From Verrucomicrobiota bacterium (GTDB lineage Bacteria > Verrucomicrobiota > Verrucomicrobiia > Opitutales > UBA953), in assembly GCA_003569205.1 (NCBI GenBank), contig BGOK01000002.1, forward strand, positions 1-64,000: a stretch of DNA of 64,000 bases. The letters are read 5' to 3'. The notes below the pieces were generated by a model. It saw only the letters and a program-made list of their open reading frames with translations, was not told the origin of the DNA and ran no database searches. The translations under genes were made by a program, and so were the position numbers. Below are positions 54,017 to 58,544 of the stretch, piece after piece; position 1 is the first letter of the stretch; each line of letters begins with the position of its first letter.

Positions 54017-55113
54017 TTAAGCGACGGCGCCGCCAGCGAGGAGCGCGCGGACGGCGGCTGCTTCGGGGACATCGTCGGCCGTGCTGGCTGCACCGATGCC
54101 TTCCTGGAGAACAAAGCGGAGCTTGCCGCCGCGGACTTTCTTGTCGCGACGCATCGCCTCCAGTATGCGTTCGAGCGGTAGGCTCGTATGCAGGCGGGTG
54201 GGCAGCTGGTGCGCGGCCAGCGTGTGGGCCACGGCGTCTGCTTCGTCCGCGGTGCACCGGCCGAGTTCCGTGGAGAGACGCGCGGCCATGACTAAACCAA
54301 TGGCGACGGCTTCACCGTGTAGGTAGGTGCCGTAACCAGCGATGGCTTCCACCGCATGGCCGAAAGTGTGTCCGAGGTTGAGCAACGCGCGACCGCCATG
54401 GGCGCTGGTTTCGCGTTCATCGCCGGCCACGACGCCCGCCTTGATCTCGACGCAGCGACGGATAATGCGCGGGAGGAGCGGGTGATTCCAAGCTAAGGGC
54501 GCGGTGGTTTGCAGTTCGGTGAACAGGGCACGGTCGGCGATGAGCCCGTGTTTAATGACTTCCGCCATGCCAGCCGCGAATTCGCGAGCGGGCAAGGTGG
54601 AGAGCAAAGCCGTGTCGGCAAAGACCGCGGTCGGTTGATGAAAATTACCGACGAGGTTTTTGCCGGCGGCGAGGTTGATACCCGTCTTCCCGCCCACCGA
54701 GCTATCGACCATTGCAAGAGCGTCGTCGGGACTTGATAGAAATCGATGCCCCGTTGGTAGGAGGCAGCCGCAAAACCAGCGAGGTCACCGACCACGCCGC
54801 CGCCGACCGCGAAGAGTGCCCCGTCACGGGCGACGCGGTGTTCCGCGAGAAAATCCCAGACCCGGGCGAGTTCGGCCGCGGACTTAGCCTTCTCGCCGTC
54901 GGTCATCGTGACATAGACCGGCATGCGTTGTTGCAGGGCTTGCAGGAGTTCCGGACGGGCCGCGGCGATGGCGGGAGAGGTCACGGCTACGCAGCGGGCC
55001 CCCTGGGCAAGGCGTTGCTCAGCGGCCGCTAAGGCTTCGGCGAGGACGCCGGTCCCAATCCGCACCGGATAGGCGCGCGAGCCGAGTTCCACTGTGACGC
55101 TTTCAGCCGACAT
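54017..55113 (-). CDS. aroB: 3-dehydroquinate synthase, one frameshift
   Basis: Second step of the shikimate pathway, NAD-dependent. From the ATG at 55113 the first frame gives FAVGGGVVGDLAGFAAASYQ and DFYQVPTTLLQ. The rest is in another frame from MVDSSVGGKTGINLAAGKNL through AEVIKHGLIAD, LNLGHTFGHAVEA and LHGEAVAIGLVMA, all typical AroB motifs including the zinc histidines. One base is missing near 54715 (TTGCAATG where TTGGCAATG is expected). The corrected protein has about 365 residues, normal for AroB. A sequencing error is likely, as the gene is normally needed. Confidence 0.93.
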
Positions 55114-55155: not shown

Positions 55156-56064
55156 TCACTCGCCGAGGCCGACCACCGAGCGGGCATAGGCCCGTTTATC
55201 GAAGGCCTGCAGGTCCTCGGGCTTTTCGCCGACACCGATGAAGCGGACGGGCACGTCGAGCTCCCGGACGATGGCTACCAACGCCCCGCCGCGGGCGGAG
55301 CCATCCAGTTTTGTGACGATTAGCCCGGTGAGGCCAACGGCTTCATGGAAGACCTTGGCTTGTTCGAGCGAGTTCGCCCCGAGTGAGCCATCGATGACGA
55401 GCCACTTCTCGTGTGGTGCGTCGGGCAAAGCCTTGTGGACCACGCGCACGACCTTGCGGAGTTCTTCGAGGAGGTGCGCCTTCGTGTGTAGTCGGCCAGC
55501 CGTGTCTAAAATCGCAAAGTCAACGCCCCGAGCAGTGGCCGCTTTAACGGCGTCGAACGCCACGGCAGCAGGGTCAGCGCCGGAGGCTCCACCGACGACT
55601 TCGGTGTCGAGGCGTGCGGCCCAGGTCGCCAACTGTTCGCCGGCGGCGGCGCGGAAAGTATCGCAGGCACCGAGTAATCCACGCTGGCCTTGTTGCTTCC
55701 ACAGTGAAACCAGTTTCGCCGCGGTCGTCGTCTTGCCCGCGCCATTGACGCCCAGTAATAGGATGACGATGGGTTTGCGGTCGGTGGGCATCGTCCAAGG
55801 CCCGCTCGTGCCGAGGGCCTTTTCGAGGACGGCGGCGGCGGCTTCGGCCGGTCCGGCCTTGCGCAGGCCAGCGTCAGACTTCCAAGCTGCCTTGGCGGCG
55901 GCAACGGCTTCATCGGCGGTGGCGGGACCGAAGTCGCCGAGGATTAAACGCTCGCGTAGTTCTTCGGCGGCTTGGTCGTCCATGGGACGGGCCAAGAGGT
56001 TGGCCACCGCTTCCGCGGTGCGGCTCAACCCGGCTTTTAGCCTCTCGAAAAAACCACCCGCCAT
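55156..56064 (-). CDS. ftsY: Signal recognition particle receptor FtsY
   Basis: The SRP receptor GTPase targets ribosomes making membrane proteins to the translocon. The 302-residue protein has a short N domain (about 1-85) and a complete G domain: GVNGAGKTTTAAKL (G1), DTFRAAAGEQLATWAARLDT, DTAGR (G3), TKLDGSARGG (G4) and GVGEKPEDLQAFD (G5). The acidic A domain of E. coli FtsY is absent, as in many bacteria. VIDGSLGANSLEQAKVF replaces the commoner VLDATTGQN form. It lies 4 bases after the fused nusB gene. Confidence 0.93.
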   Translation of the reverse strand: MAGGFFERLKAGLSRTAEAVANLLARPMDDQAAEELRERLILGDFGPATADEAVAAAKAAWKSDAGLRKAGPAEAAAAVLEKALGTSGPWTMPTDRKPIVILLLGVNGAGKTTTAAKLVSLWKQQGQRGLLGACDTFRAAAGEQLATWAARLDTEVVGGASGADPAAVAFDAVKAATARGVDFAILDTAGRLHTKAHLLEELRKVVRVVHKALPDAPHEKWLVIDGSLGANSLEQAKVFHEAVGLTGLIVTKLDGSARGGALVAIVRELDVPVRFIGVGEKPEDLQAFDKRAYARSVVGLGE

Positions 56065-56068
56065 GGCC

Positions 56069-56857
56069 TTAGGCCCCTTCGGCCTTACGAGGATCGCGGC
56101 CCAGCGTCGCCGCGTAGCGGTCGAGGATGCCGTTGACGAAGCGCTTGGATTCGTCGGTGGAGAAGACCTTGGCGATGTCGATCGCCTCGTTCATCGTCAC
56201 GACCGGCGGGATATCGGTGCGACGCATGAGTTCAAAGATGGCGAGGCGGAGCGTGGCGAGGTCGACCTTCGCGACGCGTTCAAAGGCCCAATTTTGGGCG
56301 AAGCGCACGATGATCTCGTCGATGAGGGCTTGGTCGCGGATGACCCCATGGATCAGCTCTTCAGCGAAGGCGTAATACTCGCGGGGTTGGGACTGTTCGC
56401 CGAAGAAGTCATACAGCGCCGTGACGATGTCGCCCTGGCGTTGGACTTCCCAGGAATAGAGGAACTGCATCGCGGCGACGCGGCTATCGCGGCGGCGGTT
56501 GCGCTTGGCGGGGGCTTCGCCGGGGACGGACTCGACGGCGGCGACGGGGTCCTCGGGGGCGACCACGGCGATTTCAATCCCAGCGGGCAGGTTGATGCGA
56601 CGGAGTGCATCAATCGTCTGCGGCTTCGACTCGATGATTTCGAGGAGGCGGTGATGGCAACGGAGCTCGTCGTAGGAGCTGGACGAACGCAGTGCTTCGA
56701 CCGTCGAAGGCAGGGGCAGCGGGCCGAGCGCGCGGACACCGGTGGCGGTGACGCTGTGGGCCACATCGGCCGCCGCTTGGTCAGCGAGACGGAAGTCAGG
56801 CCCCTTGATGCGGATGCGGATCCGGGTGCGGGCCGGGGAATGCGAGTCGGTATCCAT
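56069..56857 (-). CDS. nusB: Fusion of ribosomal protein S10-like (NusE) and NusB antitermination factors
   Basis: NusB and S10 (NusE) form a dimer that binds boxA RNA and allows antitermination of rRNA operons. In this 262-residue protein residues about 10-98 follow S10: TRIRIRIKGPDFRLADQAAA, GVRALGPLPLPST, and RCHHRLLEIIESKPQTIDAL with NLPAGIEIAV. Between GPLPLPST and RCHHR only 13 residues stand where E. coli S10 has 23, so most of the ribosome-binding loop is missing. A linker (about 99-120) precedes a complete NusB domain: RRDSRVAAMQFLYSWEVQRQ, FAEELIHGVIRDQALIDEII and VVTMNEAIDIAKVFSTDESK. The start overlaps the ribH stop by one base. I see no frameshift, so it is one gene. Confidence 0.85.
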   Translation of the reverse strand: MDTDSHSPARTRIRIRIKGPDFRLADQAAADVAHSVTATGVRALGPLPLPSTVEALRSSSSYDELRCHHRLLEIIESKPQTIDALRRINLPAGIEIAVVAPEDPVAAVESVPGEAPAKRNRRRDSRVAAMQFLYSWEVQRQGDIVTALYDFFGEQSQPREYYAFAEELIHGVIRDQALIDEIIVRFAQNWAFERVAKVDLATLRLAIFELMRRTDIPPVVTMNEAIDIAKVFSTDESKRFVNGILDRYAATLGRDPRKAEGA

Positions 56858-57396
56858 CAGTTCTGGGCAAAGGGTTCGTGGCCGCCGTTTTTAGCGCGCT
56901 CTTCCGCTTCGACTTGGTCGAGGCGCTCGCCGAGCTGGAGGCGGTGTTGGGCCATCATTAGGGCGGCTTGGGCGAATTCCATCCCGCGGTCGAGGGCGCC
57001 CGTGCAGCGCTCTTCGGCTTGGTGGCGGGTGTTGGTGACGATGATGCCGTTGATGACGGGGACCTCCGAGCGGAGAGCGACGTCCTGCATCGCCTTGGCG
57101 GTCGAGTGGGCGATGATCTCGTGGTGAGGGGTGTCGCCGGCAATGACCACGCCGAGGCCGATAATGCAGTCGTAGTCACCCGACAGCGCGAGCATGTTGG
57201 TGGCGTAAGGAATCTCGCCCGAACCTGGCACCATTAGGAGCCGGAGATTAGCTTCTTTCACGCCGCCAGCGGTGAGGCCCTTGGTTGTCCGTTTCACTAA
57301 CGCATCCACGAGGGCCTGATTGTAAGAGGCGGCCACGATGGCGATGAGCAGGTCGGTACCATCGACCTTTTCGTAGTGGGGCTTATCTTGGCTCAT
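56857..57396 (-). CDS. ribH: 6,7-dimethyl-8-ribityllumazine synthase
   Basis: Condenses the butanone phosphate made by RibB with the pyrimidine intermediate to the lumazine precursor of riboflavin; usually forms a pentamer or icosahedral shell. The protein has 179 residues from the ATG at 57396. Family motifs are LLIAIVAASYNQALVDALVK, LLMVPGSGEIPYATNMLA, VIAGDTPHHEII with the catalytic histidine, and VINGIIVTNTRHQAEER. The C-terminal tail is charged. The ribBA-ribH-nusB order is common across bacteria. Confidence 0.95.
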   Translation of the reverse strand: MSQDKPHYEKVDGTDLLIAIVAASYNQALVDALVKRTTKGLTAGGVKEANLRLLMVPGSGEIPYATNMLALSGDYDCIIGLGVVIAGDTPHHEIIAHSTAKAMQDVALRSEVPVINGIIVTNTRHQAEERCTGALDRGMEFAQAALMMAQHRLQLGERLDQVEAEERAKNGGHEPFAQN

Positions 57397-57466
57397 AGCG
57401 GTGGAAGAACGGAAGGCTGATGCAAGGGTTTCCGCCCTTGCGTTCAAGAGGAAACGCCAGAACCGC

Positions 57467-58544
57467 CTAGAAGGGTACCTGTTCGACGATTTCCAGCCCG
57501 TAACCGCCTAATCCGACGACTTTCCGACTGATTATTCGTGATGAGACGAATCTGGCGGAGGCCGATATGGGAAAGAATCTGAGCCCCGATACCGTAGTCG
57601 CGCGAGTCCATGGTGCTGAGACGAATGCCTTCGGCATCGGCTTTGACACCGCCACCTGGCTGGGCCACGTGGACGATGACACCGGTGCCAGCCTGGGCGA
57701 CAGCGGCAAAGCTGGCGGCGAGGGAGTCGCCCGCCCCAAAAGCTTCGCCACGGAAGAGGTCGCCTAGCAGGTTTTCGCGTTGGACGCGGACGAGCGTCGG
57801 CGCGTTGGTTGGCTGGCCAAGCACGAAGGCCAGGTGCTGGCGGCCGTCGGGGAGCGAGCGGTAGACGCGGAGTTGGAATTCACCCCAAGCGGAGTGAAAG
57901 GGGCTTTCGGCGATGAGTTCGACCAGGCGTTCTCGGCGATGGCGGAATTCGATGAGCTGCGCGATGGAGACCATGCGGAGCCCAAAGCGCTGCTTGAGCT
58001 CAATCAGTTCTGGCAGGCGTGCCATCGAGCCATCCTCATTGAGGATTTCGCAGATGACGCCGCTGGGGTGCAGGCCCGCGAGCGAAGCTAGGTCAACGGC
58101 GGCTTCGGTGTGGCCAGCGCGCTGGAGCACGCCGCCAGGGCGCGCCATCAGCGGGAAGATATGCCCAGGTTGGACGAGTTGTTCCGGCTTAGAGTTCGGG
58201 TCAGCGAGGATGGCGATGGTCTTGGCGCGGTCGTAGGCGCTGATACCCGTCGAGATACCATCAGCGGCGTCGACCGAGACGGCAAACGCCGTGCGTTGCG
58301 ATTCACGGTTCTCGGGCACCATTTGGGAGATGCCTAGGCGGCGGAGCTGATGCTCGACCGTTGGCACGCAGATGAGCCCACGCGCGTGGCGAATCATCAT
58401 GTTGACCGCCTCCGGCGTGACCTTGGCGGCCGCCATCACGAAGTCGCCTTCGTTCTCACGGTTCTCGTCATCGGTCACAATGACGAGCTTCCCCGCGGCG
58501 ATGTCCGCGAGGGCTGCCTCGATGCTGTCAAAGGGCTCGTCCAT
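57467..58544 (-). CDS. ribBA: 3,4-dihydroxy-2-butanone 4-phosphate synthase with degenerate GTP cyclohydrolase II domain, one frameshift
   Basis: The first ~200 residues are a complete RibB: DDENRENEGDFVMAA (acidic active site), VSVDAADGISTGISAYDRAK, and RAGHTEAAVDLASLAGLHPS. The C-terminal part should be GTP cyclohydrolase II, but the zinc cysteines of SECLTGD and RCDCG are absent (RENLLGD; RGEAFGAG), and the GRGIGL to TVEANHQLG stretch is largely missing, so the domain is very probably inactive. Near the end an extra base at 57527 shifts the frame; corrected, the protein ends KVVGLGGYGLEIVEQVPF at 57467, about 359 residues. GTP cyclohydrolase II must come from elsewhere, or the pathway differs. 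Confidence 0.88.

Follow-up and report, generated by a model that had tools for sequence, protein, structure and literature searches.

A natural fusion of a loop-shortened S10 paralogue to NusB in part of one genus of the Opitutales

S10 is a textbook ribosomal protein with a second role in transcription. As the protein is essential, its division between the ribosome and transcription is difficult to address experimentally. According to the available part of PMC10931766, E. coli NusB pairs with S10 to bind boxA, and S10 in complex with NusB is barred from the ribosome. In the window, i.e., the complete stretch of 64,000 nucleotides of contig BGOK01000002.1 from a Verrucomicrobiota bacterium, a single gene appears to encode both partners in one chain. 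This raises the questions of whether the fusion is real, how far it extends, and whether its S10 part is a dedicated transcription subunit or a second ribosomal protein.

The gene (positions 56069..56857, minus strand) forms one frame of 262 residues from an ATG at 56857 to the stop at 56069 and is complete in 37 of 55 genomes of the same genus, that of the window included. The gene order at the locus is ribBA-ribH-fusion-ftsY. Directly upstream, ribH (56857..57447, minus strand; Pfam DMRL_synthase) overlaps the fusion start with its stop codon, and ftsY (55156..56064, minus strand; Pfam SRP54) is situated directly downstream; in all 37 fused loci both genes were matched beside the fusion, ftsY in three of them in part. 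In case of ribBA (57444..58544, minus strand; Pfam DHBP_synthase and GTP_cyclohydro2), located upstream of ribH, the 3' end (57444-57751) is frameshifted in the window, and this frameshift is absent from six named relatives compared. Likewise, aroB (54017-55113, minus strand) falls into two separate frames in the window and occurs as a single frame in the six relatives; an assembly error or a fresh mutation is therefore likely for aroB.

The S10 (NusE-like) domain was assigned to residues 11-99 (56561..56827, minus strand). The Pfam model Ribosomal_S10 (PF00338) matches residues 14-98 with an E-value of 9.3e-10 and 39.1 bits (cut-off 21.2), and two NCBIfam models of bacterial rpsJ match residues 10-98 and 12-98 (E 1.3e-15 and 4.7e-14), in agreement with the S10-like part that the sequence-only reading had placed at residues 10-98. 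A chance match to S10 is ruled out by these scores and by the 37 full fusions. Due to scores below the cut-offs of the rpsJ equivalogs TIGR01049 (52.5 vs. 72.75 bits) and NF001861 (57.5 vs. 85 bits), the S10 half is to be regarded as an S10 paralogue and not as rpsJ. It is followed by a linker of about 20 residues (residues 100-119; 56501..56560, minus strand), which is variable across the 37 members and shows a higher dN/dS than the S10 part in four of five subclades. The NusB domain (residues 120-252; 56102..56500, minus strand) is the sole NusB match of the genome. With Pfam NusB (PF01029) at residues 124-249 (E 3.3e-31, 108.9 bits, cut-off 23.1) and 128.4 bits for NCBIfam TIGR01951 (curated cut-off 88.35), the second half is a complete NusB, as had been proposed.

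An assembly error or a wrong start codon might be suspected as the origin of the fusion, given that aroB and ribBA are frameshifted in the window and not in the six relatives. The same frame with the same ribH-side start was found in 37 genomes, ten of them as named MAG records, and the probability of such an artefact is practically negligible. The start codon (ATG in 34 loci, GTG in three) is located at or a few bases from the ribH stop in all 37 loci, and 17 of these have an in-frame stop one codon before it. Due to this adjacency and the in-frame stop just upstream, a translation start near residue 115, which had been named as speaking against the fusion, is not favoured. In-frame GTG or ATG codons occur in and after the linker of the seven members examined, at no conserved place before the NusB core. 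None of the 37 complete copies contains an internal stop. Full fusions were also observed on ten Opitutae/Verrucomicrobia MAG contigs with different isolate labels, e.g., UppL5_bin-0020, Kiruna3_bin-4549, UBA957, and PowLak16_MAG4, which probably correspond to members of the 37.

The genome of the window (2.23 Mb, 34 contigs, 85% complete) contains a separate canonical rpsJ, which reaches 119.8 bits with the Pfam S10 model vs. 39.9 bits for the fused copy, one nusG above the curated cut-off, and no NusB match besides the fusion. The best NusA match (G000:C2:258704-259553; L205, L206) lies below the curated cut-off at a contig end and contains four stops. In a first look at 52 genomes of the order, the fusion was found in the window's genome alone, and S10-model searches of 188 class and 145 phylum genomes likewise yielded a second S10 in this genome alone; each of the class, order, and phylum draws contained only one other same-genus genome, the unfused G098. 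Six of the 188 class genomes (G058, G070, G133, G036, G078, and G163), three of which are at least 96% complete, gave no S10 match, which perhaps reflects gaps. A profile search of 387 phylum genomes used a model of 160 positions that represents the NusB part only and is uninformative on S10, and two scans of viral contigs gained no further homologues.

A family search with the fusion protein as query covered 79 genomes, 55 of the same genus and 24 of four sister genera, and rules out a single-genome oddity. Besides the 37 full fusions, the genus comprises three genomes with fragments that fit a fusion (G250, G285, and G258), nine with an unfused NusB, and six without a NusB match. In all 24 genomes of the sister genera, NusB matches without an S10 part were observed; the match of G236 seemed to extend far into the S10 part, which on reading proved absent. 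Among close relatives, the presence of the fusion is thus partial: the fusion is real beyond the window, and as far as searched it is confined to part of one genus. With this restriction and two probable losses (see below), it is not a general trait of the Opitutae. Of the 37 fusion genomes, 30 also gave a match for a normal rpsJ, a check that had been proposed; the remaining seven are each at most 85% complete.

The missing residues of the ribosome-binding loop fall between residues 56 and 57 (56689..56690, minus strand). Compared to rpsJ of the same genus, the loop is shortened by 9 residues in the window's clade, by 10 in most other members, and by about 17 in L127, the most diverged member, whose S10 part is hard to align. 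The columns 50-58 of E. coli S10 are empty in all 37 fused copies, and the shortening of about 10 residues that had been read from the window alone therefore extends, with 9 or more residues gone, to 37 of 37. In addition, K30 is lost in all and R31 in 34 of the 37, and both are kept in the 48 rpsJ sequences counted. The fused copies share 39-48% identity with canonical rpsJ (same-genus matches). Invariant in all 37 are R7, R9, D14, R16, D19, Q20, A22, G38, P39, P41, P43, R68, H70, R72, T83, R89, and G95, among others. Position 15 is occupied by Tyr (25), Phe (8), or His (4) and position 26 by Ile (16), Ala (10), Val (10), or Thr (1), compared to Tyr and Val, respectively, in 48 of 48 rpsJ. 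Identity to the commonest rpsJ residue amounts to 57% for columns of the NusB face, 50% for other columns, and 40% for columns that we took as the face towards RNAP/NusG (alpha2 and beta4, our own assignment).

The counts of 48 rpsJ sequences lack five of 53 loci that were missed by the search motif, all of them with the variants GPIVLP or GPITLP of the window's subclade; the counts of 78 include these five and are without L006, L009, L010, L024, and L028 (of 83). Two candidate marks of functional change were rejected on the basis of the latter set. A change from Gln20 to His in rpsJ was considered as a mark of lost NusB binding, but position 20 is other than Gln in 23 of 78 rpsJ, and His occurs in the unfused genus g141 (L182 and L183) as well. 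Position 86, which we take to be the site of an E. coli mutation, carries Ala or Val in the fused copy; as Glu86 is present in 78 of 78 rpsJ read, a regained function was dropped in favour of a lineage trait.

In E. coli, helix alpha1 and strand beta2 of S10 contact NusB, and H15, R16, D19, and V26 of NusE face Y18, L22, E75, and E81 of NusB, according to the accessible sections of PMC8341153. R16 and D19 are both kept in all 37 fused S10s. For NusB, 81 proteins were surveyed, and 40 columns are at least 95% constant in the 44 unfused NusBs. All 44 unfused proteins have Tyr or Phe at position 18; 26 of the 37 fused proteins carry Cys or Val instead, and Tyr is kept in 11. In the clade-2 fusions, Tyr18 is the only one of the 40 constant columns lost by the majority (Cys in 25 out of 28), and L127 lost three constant columns, Tyr18 (Val) among them. 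Members of the window's clade kept Tyr18 in eight out of eight cases, with conservative changes in two other constant columns. Position 81 is Asp in all 37 fused proteins and position 75 is Glu in nine of them; unfused NusBs also differ from one another at positions 22 and 75. Since the most changed of the constant columns is an S10 contact, the fusion is tied to the S10-NusB interface. With the two domains tethered, high affinity may have become less necessary, or the change may now keep free S10 out; alternatively, the loss of Tyr18 in 26 of 37 could mean a weakened interface.

On the side of rpsJ, Pro41 is replaced by Val or Thr (GPIVLP/GPITLP) in five genomes of the window's subclade (L137, L171, L172, L173, and L188) and kept in the other 73 of 78 rpsJ read as well as in all 37 fused copies. 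These changes are taken as a hint only, because they represent one or two events in close relatives. The change of Pro41 next to the NusB-touching strand and the loss of Tyr18 elsewhere are the basis for supposing that the tasks of S10 were split, the loop-less fused S10 acting in transcription only and the ribosomal S10 giving up NusB binding. We regard such a split as possible, if somewhat doubtful. Only in the window's own subclade is there a hint that rpsJ has handed over the NusE role completely; the aligned rpsJ of clade 2 is normal in appearance, which argues against a general hand-over. If true, the split would provide a natural separation-of-function system for NusE.

Structure models were computed from alignments of 22 and 17 rows. 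The model of the window's protein is poor (pLDDT 55.3, pTM 0.41) and that of the homologue L101 is moderate (pLDDT 70.4, pTM 0.56); the placement of the domains relative to each other is unreadable from the output of either. The NusB half of the L101 model consists of seven helices and matches 3d3b_A (target TM 0.76) and 5lm7_D (0.85) in Foldseek, and its S10 half matches solved S10 chains. Short S10 chains, loop-deleted as judged by name or length, fit the L101 model with an rmsd of 2.3-3.3 among the matches listed and full-length chains with 3.7-7.8 among the 50 matches listed, bearing in mind that a shorter chain lowers the rmsd by itself.

Selection was estimated as Nei-Gojobori dN/dS pooled over sequence pairs within each of five fusion subclades, which comprise 36 of the 37 proteins, L127 being left out. 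For the S10 part, values of 0.040, 0.082, 0.016, 0.064, and 0.163 were obtained, and for the NusB part of the same subclades 0.062, 0.036, 0.040, 0.031, and 0.065. The S10-part values are those expected for a translated and retained domain under purifying selection.

A locus tree was built from ribH, ftsY, and the NusB domain with 53 rows, without L133 and L196, which lack ftsY. The fused members are not monophyletic in this tree: grouping all 37 gives a p-AU of 0.0025, and grouping them with L127 set aside gives 0.0009. Eight unfused members form a clade that is sister to the window's clade (99.5/100, the outgroups being placed on the opposite side). The position of the unfused G098 amid other fusions is weakly supported, and L127 branches at the base of the genus (92.6/88). 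The S10 domains of all 37 fusions form one group against 78 rpsJ (92/81), as read from few columns and with a long branch of L127. The locus tree needs three changes, two of which are forced by well-supported branches. The simplest history is a single gain with probably two losses, at least one of which is firmly required if there was only one gain; independent gains or a transfer of the fused gene may be considered as alternatives. In nine out of nine unfused same-genus members, no S10 remnants were found between ribH and nusB, which abut or overlap with the start chosen. Due to the nine unfused genomes and the two probable losses, the fusion does not seem to be indispensable over long times.

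The two probable losses and the strong divergence of L127 would suit an S10 extension that is a neutral or decaying relic. This is very unlikely considering S10-part dN/dS values of 0.016-0.163 in the five subclades and the absence of internal stops from 37 complete copies. Another conceivable role is that of a plug, in which the fused S10 covers the S10 site of NusB and is displaced for NusB to work, or spares ribosomal S10. The NusB contacts R16 and D19 are kept as a plug would need, the changes of Tyr18 would suit a looser, displaceable partner, and the columns taken as the RNAP/NusG face are less kept (40%). However, R7, R9, R68, H70, R72, and other residues off the NusB face are invariant in 37 of 37, which is beyond the needs of a plug, and the altered NusB contact in 26 of 37 is expected to hinder canonical S10 as well. 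We thus consider a plug unlikely. Entry of the fused S10 into some 30S subunits, by which NusB would be tethered to ribosomes, agrees with an S10 domain evident from sequence and from the moderate model, but columns 50-58 are gone and K30 is lost in all 37 members and R31 in 34, and 30 of the 37 genomes have a canonical rpsJ besides. The exclusion of NusB-bound S10 from the ribosome, as given in the available part of PMC10931766, argues in the same direction, and this role appears highly improbable.

We consider it likely that the gene encodes a covalent, dedicated NusE-NusB module directed at boxA, with the ribosomal work left to rpsJ. A natural fusion with a shortened loop beside a normal rpsJ, as put forward by the sequence-only reading, is borne out by domain matches, alignments, and the genome search, and its further proposal of a dedicated transcription subunit in preference to a second ribosomal protein is favoured by purifying selection on the S10 part and by the retention of R16 and D19. 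In an ancestor of the genus, a second rpsJ copy would have arisen, shed most of its 30S-inserting loop, and become fused in frame with nusB at the 5' side of the latter, resulting in a one-chain module. The S10 part would then dock in cis on NusB in analogy to S10 in E. coli, and the boxA-binding pair would be present at 1:1 and not draw on ribosomal S10, the separate rpsJ serving the ribosome. Putative steps of this mechanism are the docking in cis, the binding of boxA, and a part in the antitermination of rRNA transcription. According to the available part of PMC4642336, little NusE is estimated to occur in free form, and the protein by itself is unstable; because of this, and because NusB-bound S10 is barred from the ribosome, the fusion would have a purpose, since a tethered loop-less S10 would supply every NusB with a partner and presumably solve the supply problem. 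Counting against the dedicated module, the S10 contact V26 is retained by no more than 10 of the 37 members, and the only slightly better conservation of the NusB face (57% vs. 50%) as well as the 40% of the columns taken as the RNAP/NusG face weigh against it, too.

Evolution appears to have separated the roles of S10 by means of a dedicated copy that lacks most of the loop and is tied to NusB. The fusion is a single-chain candidate for a boxA-binding module in structure work and would allow one to ask whether antitermination is limited by the supply of S10. The genus with its fused and unfused members represents a natural comparison set.

RfaH and LoaP are NusG paralogues and exemplify duplicated transcription factors specialised for antitermination; to our knowledge, they belong to a different protein family, in which no ribosomal protein was duplicated and no fusion to a partner took place. 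Closest to the present case are the E. coli complexes of NusB and S10 (PDB 3D3B and 3D3C) and of NusB, NusE, and boxA (3R2C), which consist of the same two domains; their chains are matched by each half of the fusion by sequence and in Foldseek, and R16 and D19 of S10 are kept. In contrast to E. coli, the domains form one chain here, S10 is a second copy and not the ribosomal protein, and Tyr18 is changed in 26 of 37. A loop-deleted NusE paired with NusB has been used in the laboratory, as described in the available part of PMC4642336, and shares with the fusion a loop-less S10 paired with NusB; it is man-made and two-chain, whereas the present protein is natural and linked, with at least 9 residues of the loop region gone. 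The canonical rpsJ of the same genomes is homologous but has the full loop. As presumed at the outset, no earlier description of a natural NusB-S10 fusion was found in titles and abstract openings of the open-access literature, subscription papers and bioRxiv being outside this scope.

With regard to boxA, no 16S genes were matched in the 55 same-genus genomes, one was matched among the 79 family genomes, and none in 15 further genomes of the order, single-contig genomes included; the control was matched in 9 of 14 well-known genomes. Single-contig genomes without a 16S match are G024, G081, G085, G093, G117, G137, and others. An rRNA spacer tRNA pair was likewise found in one of the 79 family genomes. 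It thus appears that 16S genes went undetected or are hidden in the data searched. In the one relative with a 16S match, which belongs to another genus of the family, TGCTCTTTAA was not found even with one mismatch allowed; TGTTCTTT sites, two mismatches from TGCTCTTTA, are located in its rRNA leader and spacer. At L197, upstream of the 16S gene of G240 (minus strand), two tandem near-copies of a block with a promoter-like core TTGACG...GAGACTAA were recognised by eye.
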